From Streptomyces halobius (GTDB lineage: Bacteria; Actinomycetota; Actinomycetes; Streptomycetales; Streptomycetaceae), in assembly GCF_023277745.1 (NCBI RefSeq), contig NZ_CP086322.1:8928001-8992000 (forward strand): a stretch of DNA of 64,000 nt. The letters run 5' to 3'. Every line of letters starts with the position of its first letter. Position 1 is the first letter of the stretch. The notes below the pieces were generated by a model. That model made no database searches. It was not told the DNA's origin and saw only the letters and a program-made list of their open reading frames with translations. Positions 54,552 through 58,050 of the stretch are shown piece after piece. The position numbers were made by a program, and so were the translations under genes.

Positions 54552-55688
54552 GTGCACCCCACCCGCAAGGCGGTCGTGACAGCCGCCGCACTCCTGGTCA
54601 TGGCCACCGCCGGCTGCGAACCCGGCGCCGGCACCACCGCATCCCACAGGAGCTCCGACACACCCGGATGCCCCGCCGCCCTCTCCAGAGCCAAGCAGGC
54701 CGTCAAGAAGGCCGAGGAGGTCAACGCCCCCTGGAAGGGCCCCACCACCGGGCCCAGGGCCGTCCACGGCAAGACCGTCGTCTACATCGCCCAGACCCTG
54801 ACCAATCCCGGCGTCGCCGGAGTCGCCCAAGGTGTCCAGGAAGCCGCCAAGATCGTCGGATGGCACGCCCGCACCCTCAACGGCCAGGGCACGCCCGACG
54901 GCATTCGGGCCGCCTTCCAGCAGGCCCTCCGCCTCAAGCCGGATGGCATCGTCATCGGCGGTTTTGATCCCGAGATCGTCGCGGAGGACGTCAAAAAGGC
55001 CAATACGGCCGGGATTACGCTGATCGGCTGGCACGCCACCGCAGCTCCCGGCCCCAGTAAGGATCCGCAACTCTTCAGCAACATCACCTCCCGGGTCGAG
55101 GACGTCGCGAAGATCAGCGCGGACTGGATCATTGCCCGTTCCAACGGACGCGCGGGCGTCGTCCTGTTCACCGACGCCTCGATTCCCTTCGCGAAGCGCA
55201 AGTCCGATCTGATCAAGAAGCAACTCGCCACCTGCGCCGGCACCAAGCTGCTGAGCTACACCGACATCCCCATCCCCCAGGCCAGCAGCCGCTCTCTCGG
55301 GGAAGTCCGCTCCCTGCTGTCCCGTTTCGGACGCGAGTGGACCCATTCCGCCGCCATCAACGACCTGTACTTCCAGCACGCCGCCCCCGCCCTGCGCGCG
55401 GCGGGCAAGGACGGCGCCGGCGCCCCGTTCAACATCGGTGCCGGTGACGGTGACCCGTCGGCCTTCCAGCGCGTCAACGGCAAGAAGTTCCAGGCCGCCA
55501 CCGTGCCCGAACCCCTCTCCGAACAGGGCTGGCAGATCATCGACGAGTTCAACCGCGCCTTCGCCGACGCCCCGGACAGCGGGTACGTCGCCCCCGTCCA
55601 CATCGCCACCGCCGCCAACAGCGGTGGCGCACTGTCCTGGGACTCGGAGGGCTACCGCCAGGCCTACCGCAAGATCTGGGGCGATTGA
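54552..55688 (+). CDS. Sugar-type ABC transporter substrate-binding lipoprotein
   Basis: 378-aa periplasmic-binding-protein type I lipoprotein. GTG start with GAGGAGA 6 nt upstream, signal peptide AVVTAAALLVMATAGC with the lipobox Cys about residue 22, then a two-lobe Peripla_BP_4 fold (KTVVYIAQTLTNPGVAGVAQ, KPDGIVIGGFDPEIVAEDV, HSAAINDLYFQHAAPALRAA). It resembles ribose/xylose or autoinducer-2 binding proteins. No permease or ATPase gene is adjacent in the window, so it is an orphan that may serve another transporter or a sensor. Confidence 0.85.
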   Translation: MHPTRKAVVTAAALLVMATAGCEPGAGTTASHRSSDTPGCPAALSRAKQAVKKAEEVNAPWKGPTTGPRAVHGKTVVYIAQTLTNPGVAGVAQGVQEAAKIVGWHARTLNGQGTPDGIRAAFQQALRLKPDGIVIGGFDPEIVAEDVKKANTAGITLIGWHATAAPGPSKDPQLFSNITSRVEDVAKISADWIIARSNGRAGVVLFTDASIPFAKRKSDLIKKQLATCAGTKLLSYTDIPIPQASSRSLGEVRSLLSRFGREWTHSAAINDLYFQHAAPALRAAGKDGAGAPFNIGAGDGDPSAFQRVNGKKFQAATVPEPLSEQGWQIIDEFNRAFADAPDSGYVAPVHIATAANSGGALSWDSEGYRQAYRKIWGD

Positions 55689-56656
55689 TGCGTTCTCCCG
55701 GCCCGCTCGGGCCGGTGCCAGGGGGCATCCGGCCGGGTGCGGATCGGAGCGGTGACGAGCCGCAGCGCGTAGGTCGCACGGCGGGTATCGGGCACCGGCC
55801 CGAGGTAGTGATGGCCGGTCAGGTGGCACCACGCCGGCAGATCCAACGGAGCCGCCGGGTCGTTCGCGCGCACATGGACCAGTGTCCCCGCGGGGGCATG
55901 GGCGGTCTCGCGGCGCAGGCGGAGCAGGAGCTGGACGCAGAGCAGATCGCCGCCGTCGACGACCAGGTCCGGTGCGGCCGTGGAGTCGGCGTGCACCCGG
56001 GGCAGGGCCTGGGTGATGCGCCACAGGCGGCGTGGCAGGTCGCCTTCCTCGAAGGCGTCGGCCTCCTTCAGCATCCAGCCCTTCGCCAGCGTGTCGACGA
56101 GGGAGTGGTCGAAGAAGTGCACGGCGAAGCCTCCGTGCTCGAAGATGTCGTCGCCGTGTGCGATTCCCGTGCCGTAGTGGGCGTCGCCGGTGTGGCGGAC
56201 GGTGTAGACGAAGGTGCCGCCGGGCCGCAGGACGCGGCGGACTTCGGCGACGAGCCGCACGATCTCCTTGGTGGACAGCGCCATGCACAGCAGCATGTGC
56301 GCGAAGACGGCGTCCACCGAGGCGTTCGGCAGCGGCAGCGGCTCGCGTACGTCGTGCACGGTGGTGCTCACCCGGCCTGCCAGGTTCCGGTGGCCGGCGG
56401 CCTTGCGCAGCTGCTCCAGCCCTGTGGGGGAGAAGTCGGTGGCCTGGACGGTGAAGCCCTCTTGGGCGAAGAACAGGGCGTCGCGCCCGTGCCCGGCTCC
56501 CAGCTCCAGCACATCCCGGGCACCGGACGCGGCGAAGGCCGCGGCCGCGTGGGCGGCGGGAGCGGAGGGCGCATCGCCGTACATGCCCGGATGGGCGGCG
56601 TAGGTCTGCTGCCAGTGCGCGCGCTGCACCTGGGCCAGCTCCCGGTCCTGCTGCAT
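55664..56656 (-). CDS. TehB-like methyltransferase fused to a TusA-like sulfur-carrier domain
   Basis: 330 aa. Residues about 1-230 are a class I SAM methyltransferase of the TehB/ArsM-like type (VLELGAGHGRDALFFAQEGF, DFSPTGLEQLRKAAG, VDAVFAHMLLCMAL). Residues about 240-315 look like TusA/SirA: LVVDGGDLLCVQLLLRLRRE, AHAPAGTLVHVRANDPAAPL, LPAWCHLTGHHYLG. The cysteine of the CPxP motif is kept (LLCVQL) but the prolines are lost. ATG at 56656 with AGGAG 5 nt upstream. It follows a broken cysteine desulfurase and an ArsR-rhodanese gene, so sulfur (or Se/Te/As) methylation is the likely theme. Confidence 0.8.
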   Translation of the reverse strand: MQQDRELAQVQRAHWQQTYAAHPGMYGDAPSAPAAHAAAAFAASGARDVLELGAGHGRDALFFAQEGFTVQATDFSPTGLEQLRKAAGHRNLAGRVSTTVHDVREPLPLPNASVDAVFAHMLLCMALSTKEIVRLVAEVRRVLRPGGTFVYTVRHTGDAHYGTGIAHGDDIFEHGGFAVHFFDHSLVDTLAKGWMLKEADAFEEGDLPRRLWRITQALPRVHADSTAAPDLVVDGGDLLCVQLLLRLRRETAHAPAGTLVHVRANDPAAPLDLPAWCHLTGHHYLGPVPDTRRATYALRLVTAPIRTRPDAPWHRPERAGRTHQSPQILR

Positions 56657-56658
56657 GC

Positions 56659-57355
56659 CTACTCCTGTGTCCGGCCGTCCCGGCGGGGCGGTACTGAAGG
56701 TTGTGCTGTCCCGGCACCGTCGGGGACGGCCCCGTGCCGAAGGCCCTGTCCGTGCTTGTGTCTGTGCTCGTGTCCGTGTCCGGTCGCGACCGGGGGCTTT
56801 CCGCCTCGCAACGCGATGGGCGACGGCGAGGGCGACGTTCTCGGTGCCGGCGCGCAGGCCGTCCTCCTGGCCGCCGCCGTGGACGAGCGGTTCAAGCGCC
56901 ACGCCGGGACGTACGTAGAGGGCGGCGATGCCCTTGGCGCGTACATCTTGTGCCCGGCCACGGTCAGCAGGTCCACGCCCGGCCCGCTGACGTCCAGGAG
57001 GATCTTCCCGGCGGCCTGGGCGGCGTCGCAGTGGAAGAGCGCGCCGTGTTCGCGGGTGATGCGGGCCAGGTCGGCGATGGGCTGGAGGGCGCCGGGCTCG
57101 TTGTCGGCGGCCATGACCGGGACGAGCACGGTGTGTTCGGTGAGCGCGTCGGCCAGGGAGACGGGGTCGACCCGGCCGCGGGCGTGGGGCCAGCGCGCCG
57201 GGGTTCCGTGCCGTGGATGTGGCTGCCGGAGGAGTTGCCGAACCAGTCCGTCAGATACGGGCGCATGGCCTCGGCCACCCGGGGTCGACGGGGGTGGTGG
57301 CGTTGTAGTCCAGGTAGACCGGCCCGTCCGCCGGTGCCGGGTGTGCGGGGATCAT
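56659..57355 (-). pseudogene. Cysteine desulfurase (NifS/IscS type), multiply frameshifted and deleted
   Basis: Pieces of a class V PLP enzyme appear in changing frames: MIPAHPAPADGPVYLDYNAT (start at 57355), then VAEAMRPYLTDWFGN and GSHIHGTEPRRA, then VPVMAADNEPGALQPIADLA, ALFHCDAAQAAGKILLDVSG and the PLP-lysine segment LLTVAGHKMYAP, then LEPLVHGGGQEDGLRAGTEN. At least three one-base shifts are needed, and about 70-80 residues between the His-Gly-Thr region and VSLADAL are missing. The catalytic-Cys C-terminal domain is absent. Its ATG overlaps the stop of the ArsR-rhodanese gene, so it was once an operon member. Confidence 0.85.
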
Positions 57356-58050
57356 GCGGCGGTCCCGGTGGTCACCGGCAGCTCGGCCAGCCGCCACTCC
57401 AGCATGCCGTCGCTCAGCCGGACGGCCTTGCGCCCGTGCGCGCTCAGCAGCCGCACGGCGTCGTACGCCATGACGCAGTACTCGCCGCGGCAGTACACGA
57501 CCACCTCGATGTCGTCGGGCAACTCCGCGATCCGCTCGGCAAGCTGGTCGACCGGGATGGAGACCGCACCGGGGATGTGCCCCGCGGCGTACTCCTCGGC
57601 GGGGCGGACGTCGAGGACCACCACCTTGCCCGCCTCCGCGCGGGCGAGCATGTCCTCGCGTCCGACCTCCGGTGCCCGGTCGTCGCCGAGGAGGGCGACG
57701 CGGGCGGGCTCGACATCGGTCTGATGGGCCTGGGCGACCTTCCGCAGGAGGGCGTACAGGGCGGCCACGTCCTGCCCGGCCAGCCGGTAGTGGACGCGTA
57801 CCCCCTCGCGCCGGGTGGCGACCAGCCCGGCCTGTTTGAGGGTCTGCAGGTGGGCCGAGGCGGTGGTCAGATGCAGTCCGGCCGCCTTCGCGAGCGCGTC
57901 CACGGTGCGCTCGCCCTGGGCCAGCAGATCCAGCAGTTCCAAGCGCTTTCCGCTGGCCAGCGCCTTTCCGGTGCGGGCGAAAGCGTCGAACAGGTCGGCC
58001 TTGCCCCCGCTGGGCAGGGCATCTCCCATGGCTTCCATAGCTTCCTCCAT
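57352..58050 (-). CDS. ArsR-family regulator fused to a rhodanese domain
   Basis: 232 aa. Residues about 15-105 are an ArsR/SmtB winged helix (GKRLELLDLLAQGERTVDAL, HLTTASAHLQTLKQAGLVAT). Residues about 125-225 are a rhodanese domain with LDVRPAEEYAAGHIPGAVSI and active-site loop CRGEYC (catalytic Cys). Such fusions sense or process reactive sulfur, selenium or arsenic species. Three in-frame ATGs lie at 58050, 58038 and 58029; GGAGGA best serves the one at 58038. A near-palindromic AT-rich site (ATTAATCCATGGAATATT, 58049-58066) covers the promoter side and could be its own operator. Confidence 0.88.
   Translation of the reverse strand: MEEAMEAMGDALPSGGKADLFDAFARTGKALASGKRLELLDLLAQGERTVDALAKAAGLHLTTASAHLQTLKQAGLVATRREGVRVHYRLAGQDVAALYALLRKVAQAHQTDVEPARVALLGDDRAPEVGREDMLARAEAGKVVVLDVRPAEEYAAGHIPGAVSIPVDQLAERIAELPDDIEVVVYCRGEYCVMAYDAVRLLSAHGRKAVRLSDGMLEWRLAELPVTTGTAA

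Follow-up and report, generated by a model that had tools for sequence, protein, structure and literature searches.

Genes of the Streptomyces halobius locus

We analyzed a 64,000-nt window of the Streptomyces halobius genome (NZ_CP086322.1; "the window" denotes this whole stretch, and coordinates are window positions) that carries a putative sulfur-transfer locus on its minus strand. The locus comprises an ArsR-rhodanese regulator (57352..58050; 232 aa including the stop, with an alternative start at 58029), the remnant of a NifS/IscS-type cysteine desulfurase (56819..57355) and an open reading frame (ORF) in which a methyltransferase is fused to a TusA-like domain (55664..56656; 330 aa including the stop). 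These three features, among them a methyltransferase whose TusA-like end keeps its cysteine, had been described in an earlier sequence-only reading of this DNA, and all three were confirmed at these positions. Related loci and genomes are cited below by handles beginning with L and G, respectively.

The regulator scored above the Pfam cut-offs for HTH_5/HTH_20 and Rhodanese, its rhodanese loop CRGEYC is intact, and its stop codon shares an ATGA overlap with the start of the desulfurase. The only two cysteines of the window regulator lie in this loop, and both are kept in 12 of 12 aligned loci. Only two of these loci have further cysteines, L091 outside the ArsR half and L099 inside it; for Cys sites, the only ligand type considered, the ArsR half thus offers no metal ligand in the window regulator and a candidate in 1 of the 12 loci. 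Since the loop cysteines are always kept and cysteines in the ArsR half are nearly absent, the regulator appears suited to persulfidation sensing rather than to Cys-bound metal.

The desulfurase was compared with the intact 390-aa NifS of L008, whose residue numbering is used here. Recognizable pieces correspond to residues ~4 to 25, 22 to 55, 136 to 219 and 217 to 255 and run in changing frames from ~57355 to 56819. Residues ~56 to 135 and ~260 to 390 are missing, and with the latter the STGSACHSG region, which we take to be the site of the catalytic Cys, so that the remnant is not a complete NifS protein. Because large stretches are missing and the frames change, we regard it as a real pseudogene; a single sequencing slip as the sole cause was rejected, since two large stretches are gone. 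An intact 482-aa NifS-TusA fusion with a CPIP motif is encoded elsewhere in the same genome (L001; G000:C1:7081909-7085115, 1492-2940, minus strand).

In the fused ORF, the methyltransferase domain occupies residues 1 to 220 (55997..56656, minus strand) and contains the motifs GAGHGRD, HMLLCMALST with Cys124, and RHTGDAHYG...GDD...GGFAVHFF. The frame continues through the junction (55988..55999, minus strand), the site at which relatives have an ATGA/GTGA overlap, into the TusA-like domain (55667..55990, minus strand), with Cys240 in LLCVQL (codon 55937-55939) and Cys277 in AWCH (codon 55826-55828).

The C-terminal domain is TusA-like

The TusA model PF01206 was borderline for the fused ORF, with 28.0 bits in the protein scan, slightly below the cut-off of 28.6, and 31.1 bits in the genome search, above it. 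E. coli TusA/YhhP was matched by sequence in the PDB (E=2e-4); in this alignment, the LLCVQL cysteine falls on that of the CPEP stretch, and the second cysteine is aligned as well. The TusA-like fold was seen in the predicted model only, in which this part reads strand-helix-strand-helix-strand-strand (strand 231 to 235, helix 240 to 251) with the cysteine starting helix 1; the predicted local distance difference test score (pLDDT) is 82 to 93 over the block of residues 231 to 300. PDB alignment and model bear out the earlier assignment of a TusA-like end with a retained cysteine. Across the family alignment, the LLCV cysteine is present in 36 of 37 rows and the AWCH cysteine in all 37. With E. 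coli TusA/YhhP the domain shares the fold order in the model and both aligned cysteines; it differs in its CVQL motif and in its coupling to a methyltransferase or MFS transporter. Three copies (L016, L019 and L030) have a damaged-looking TusA-like frame.

The methyltransferase resembles the N-terminal part of MduS

A search for related loci gave 194 confirmed loci, of which the best 80 were used; since similarity to the fused query set their ranking, TusA-linked copies are over-represented among them. The window methyltransferase keeps 108 of the 110 columns conserved in ≥95% of these 80 relatives, HMLLCMALST included, and departs from them at two. The window and all 80 streptomycete relatives share one invariant methyltransferase cysteine; L113 has Thr at this position, which indicates that the cysteine is not essential in the wider methyltransferase family.

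In the Pfam scan, Methyltransf_25/11/12 and TehB (PF03848, 31.5 bits; cut-off, 20.4) exceeded their cut-offs. The best family model was the N-terminal part of MduS (NF045649), aligned over residues 8 to 215 with 218.4 bits. MduS is listed among predicted selenoproteins, with two selenocysteines (PMC13188914). The window protein differs from it in scoring below the 380-bit cut-off, in leaving the C-terminal part of the model unmatched, and in carrying the TusA-like domain instead. Its ORF contains no in-frame TGA and hence no selenocysteine, and identity as a selenoprotein was rejected on this ground and on that of the stop arrangement in the relatives with an adjacent TusA-like gene, described below. 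The NCBIfam TehB models gave 36 to 38 bits against cut-offs of 218 to 303 (equivalog, 36.4 versus 219.5), and many other methyltransferases superpose too; the ArsM arsenite methyltransferase subfamily gave 24.2 bits against a cut-off of 263. The TehB or ArsM identity proposed earlier is thus not sustained. By the MduS model, with five candidates scored per listed genome, the methyltransferase is rare outside Streptomyces: 4 of 346 genomes of the phylum, our own included, matched at E ≤ 1e-30.

Methyltransferase and TusA-like carrier are normally separate genes

A TusA-like gene is present in 21 of the 80 methyltransferase loci and lies within 100 bp of the methyltransferase in 18, fused L003 included. 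The methyltransferase ends at residue 217 to 233 in 79 of the 80 relatives, the exception being L003 (Streptomyces sp. CB01580). Among 21 close methyltransferase/TusA-like pairs, 19 are separate genes (L105 and L106 among them) and two, the window and L003, are fused. In 18 of the 19 separate pairs, the methyltransferase stop lies in an ATGA/GTGA overlap, with the TusA-like gene in another frame; L016 has TAA. The carrier follows in the frame opened by the overlap in 17 of the 18 overlapping pairs (not in L030). Chance alone will fairly often place an A or G in front of a TGA stop, and the telling evidence is therefore the overlap and the frame together.

Three of the best 120 of 2274 database matches carry a TusA domain: the window protein, the CB01580 protein and P0005. 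The last of these is fused, with a methyltransferase half that has lost the HMLLCMALST motif and conserved residues. On the best tree, whose backbone is weak, the window methyltransferase is placed with L004 (88/82) rather than with L003, and for this reason the two fusions look independent. With only 2 of 21 pairs fused, plus P0005 and its degraded methyltransferase half, the earlier idea that the fusion is a designed delivery device is not supported; judged against the related genes, the window fusion is a minor local event and not their normal state. Compared with the separate pairs, its junction runs in a different frame and has no overlap TGA; because both differ, sequencing error is an unlikely cause. 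The carrier would have become part of the methyltransferase protein when the overlapping stop was lost and the frame changed. A GTG (55994-55996) lies in frame at the position of the carrier's start, from which a separate TusA-like carrier may still be initiated.

A plus-strand ORF (54312-55688), substrate-binding lipoprotein-like by reading only, converges on the fusion gene, and their 3' ends overlap by ~25 bases. Beyond it, minus-strand ORFs at 50174-54228 stand in a row (sensor-kinase-like, roadblock-like and GTP-binding-like by reading) and resemble a streptomycete conservon.

Intact operons and gene overlaps with alternative partners

Intact versions of the gene set were found in other genomes. 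In L008 (Streptomyces sp. H39-S7), all four genes stand in a row in the order ArsR-rhodanese, NifS, methyltransferase, TusA-like, with a gene for a 140-aa protein between NifS and the methyltransferase. ArsR-rhodanese and NifS are followed by the methyltransferase in L079 and L099, and by the TusA-like gene in L026, L092 and L097; in L061, the methyltransferase stands beside an oppositely directed ArsR-rhodanese/NifS pair. The co-occurrence of these genes elsewhere, whose absence could have spoken against the sequence-only reading, is thus present. Divergent MBL-like-rhodanese and major facilitator superfamily (MFS) genes adjoin ArsR-rhodanese in several loci; in L008, an MBL-like-rhodanese and an MFS gene diverge from the operon. 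The 140-aa protein between NifS and the methyltransferase (L008:7538-7960, cluster 16) is glycine-rich and also occurs in L097 and L098.

The ATGA/GTGA overlap is not confined to the methyltransferase. It joins ArsR-rhodanese to NifS in 9 of 9 cases, 8 of which read in the opened frame, and it links the 3' end of an MFS transporter gene with the start of the TusA-like gene in 11 of 11, all likewise in the opened frame (L017, L093 to L096, L098, L101, L102, L104, L107 and L108). These arrangements place the carrier in operons alongside a desulfurase, a methyltransferase or a transporter.

Occurrence was then counted in 219 Streptomyces genomes, with pairwise Fisher tests on 218 (own genome left out) that assume independence among species, an assumption not satisfied here. 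ArsR-rhodanese was found in 33 of 219 genomes at E ≤ 1e-30, with G104, G129 and G187 matching only at 42% identity or partially, and the methyltransferase in 36 at E ≤ 1e-45. TusA-like matches occurred in 119 genomes at E ≤ 1e-8 and in 19 at E ≤ 1e-20, and these 19 were counted as the family. Most of the listed matches in the 100 dropped genomes are 31 to 47% identical, many of them in ~460-aa frames like our own NifS-TusA; short stretches at 65 to 77% in G097, G108, G139, G180, G195 and G213 may be pieces of true members. ArsR-rhodanese (32 genomes) and TusA-like (18 genomes) occur together in 10 of 218 (p=2.3e-5), and they lie ≤5 kb apart in 8 of these 10 (not in G007 and G169).

Metal genes in the methyltransferase neighborhood

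CmtR-like or CDF genes are present in 27 of the 80 methyltransferase loci (CmtR-like in 24 and CDF in 25; other queries gave 25 and 23). At least one of CmtR-like ArsR, CDF exporter, MerR, YnfA, a DF-family gene and two further island genes occurs in 35 of 80, that is, in 13 of the 21 loci with a TusA-like gene and in 22 of the 59 without; sulfur genes were found in 6 of 80. The metal-gene matches lie mostly within 1.5 kb of the methyltransferase (CmtR-like 22/25, CDF 21/25, DF 11/11, YnfA 8/9, MerR 6/6). At the same thresholds, none of these five was found in 16 methyltransferase-free TusA-like regions used as controls (L091 and L092 being short); one of the controls, L094, carries arsenic genes of the ArsR and ACR3 types. 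None of the metal genes sought is present at the window locus.

In L013, CmtR-like, CDF, DF, methyltransferase and TusA-like genes stand in one row. The CmtR-like protein of L027 scored 139.7 bits, short of the 150-bit cut-off; it has Cys57, Cys61 and Cys102, positions that we take to be the CmtR metal ligands. In L099 (4703-10475), CmtR/CDF genes and an arsenic operon (ArsC, ArsR, ACR3) lie end-on to methyltransferase-NifS-ArsR-rhodanese. The distant genome of L111 (1402-2528) has, behind an MduS-type methyltransferase, a protein with sub-cut-off matches to the ArsM/DUF2284 model (175 bits) and the MbdU selenoprotein model (166 bits); ORFs close by are ArsR-like by eye.

A proposed sulfane-sulfur carrier with interchangeable partners

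We tentatively read the window locus as a decaying copy of a streptomycete operon for handling sulfane sulfur, in which the TusA-like protein would carry sulfur to exchangeable disposal partners (a methyltransferase or a transporter), a rhodanese-based sensor would be in control, and the local desulfurase is dead. For this reading as a whole we put the probability at roughly 0.4. ArsR-rhodanese would sense persulfide or polysulfide on its two rhodanese-loop cysteines and relieve repression. To judge from the families and the gene coupling, NifS would make persulfide from cysteine and, with rhodanese-type proteins, load the LLCV cysteine of the carrier. The carrier, translationally coupled to a partner, would pass its sulfur to the S-adenosylmethionine (SAM)-dependent methyltransferase, which would turn it into a methylated sulfur compound that is volatile or harmless, or to the MFS transporter, which would move it; the gene couplings themselves are observed. 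In the window, with NifS dead, another source of sulfur would be needed, such as the intact NifS-TusA protein of L001. Speculatively, the same S-methylation beside CmtR/CDF genes would serve metal stress, with freed sulfide or thiol as the acceptor. SAM requires a nucleophile, and sulfide or persulfide fits the neighbors found in the window's type of locus. That the carrier itself presents protein-bound sulfane sulfur, or a thiol-held soft chalcogen or metalloid, to the SAM methyltransferase and interchangeably to the MFS transporter is doubtful as a specific step.

Several observations weigh against this reading. The whole fused model is middling (mean pLDDT, 76.2; predicted template modeling score, 0.64; five models, 53.9 to 76.2). 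Where classical TusA has CPxP, the domain has CVQL, with V after the Cys position in 37 of 37 rows of the family. No TusA-like gene is found in 59 of the 80 methyltransferase loci, ArsR-rhodanese is present in only 6, CmtR/CDF metal genes are the commonest neighbors among those sought, and 35 loci have no sought metal, sulfur or TusA-like neighbor at all. Across the 218 genomes, neither ArsR-rhodanese (together in 6; p=0.41) nor the TusA-like gene (together in 5; p=0.14) is enriched alongside the methyltransferase; in the five genomes with both methyltransferase and TusA-like gene, the two are adjacent in G194 and G233, ~8 kb apart in G100, and apart in G003 and G170. The counts suggest that sensor and carrier belong together and that the methyltransferase is an optional partner, which counts against an obligate relay and hence against the three-part system of the sequence-only reading.

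Methylation of a metal or metalloid is kept as a strong rival because of the metal genes near the methyltransferase and the arrangement in L111, although we judge it rather unlikely. A metal-linked family would then methylate a soft metalloid or chalcogen that offers a lone pair (As, Se or Te), with the element held by a thiol-rich partner (TusA-like in the window, DF-family or DUF2284/MbdU-type in other loci). MduS as the best family model, the putative metal ligands of the CmtR-like protein and the arsenic operon adjoining in L099 speak for it, as does the absence of CmtR-like, CDF and DF-family genes from the control regions at the thresholds used. Arsenic genes are nevertheless rare across the 80 loci (ArsC in 2, Acr3 in 0), the ArsM score is far below its cut-off, and the window locus itself has none of the metal genes sought. 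Cd, Pb and Zn ions, moreover, cannot accept the electrophilic methyl group of SAM and are unsuited as acceptors. Loss of function in this genome, with the desulfurase gone, the frames joined and the remainder being lost, is an unlikely reading too. The extensive desulfurase decay, the unfused state of nearly all relatives, the degraded P0005, the two departures from conserved columns and the damaged-looking TusA-like frames in other loci are consistent with it; retention of the other 108 columns, HMLLCMALST among them, and of the cysteines of regulator and TusA-like domain speaks against it.

It is quite unlikely that the methyltransferase is an Mdd-like enzyme of the MddM1 kind, for which the TusA-like protein and NifS would merely produce sulfide. 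MddM1 and MddM2 are H2S and methanethiol (MeSH) S-methyltransferases of Actinomycetota; MddM1, a 210-aa protein predicted to be cytoplasmic, methylates both substrates, and homologues from two Streptomyces were active (PMC12904073). Both are, like the window enzyme, small SAM methyltransferases in Streptomyces with a proposed role in sulfur detoxification, and size and share of Streptomyces genomes are similar (36/219 here, 19.75% in PMC12904073). The distribution across the phylum seems different, with MddM1 given for 51% of Actinomycetota genomes there and an MduS-model match in 4 of 346 here; methods and sampling differ, and the comparison rests on distribution and description. The words TusA, rhodanese and desulfurase are absent from the main text of PMC12904073. 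Full-text searches of open-licence papers did not find this gene set described; in that literature, nothing joined ArsR, a rhodanese domain, cysteine desulfurase and TusA, or CmtR, Streptomyces, methyltransferase and cadmium, and TusA, a methyltransferase domain, fusion, cysteine desulfurase and rhodanese came together in one paper only, a review of modified ribonucleosides. The NifS-TusA protein of L001 unites a desulfurase and a TusA domain for the same proposed chemistry, but has CPIP in its TusA half and no methyltransferase.

TusA-type carriers supply sulfur to tRNA thiolation, to the synthesis of cofactors and to sulfur oxidation. If the sulfane-sulfur reading is correct, methylation or export would be a further fate for carrier-bound sulfur, placed behind a persulfide-type sensor, and reactive-sulfur stress might be tied to metal stress in soil actinomycetes. 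The fusion in S. halobius is minor in this respect; the main interest would lie in a CPxP-less TusA-like carrier whose translationally coupled partners are interchangeable.

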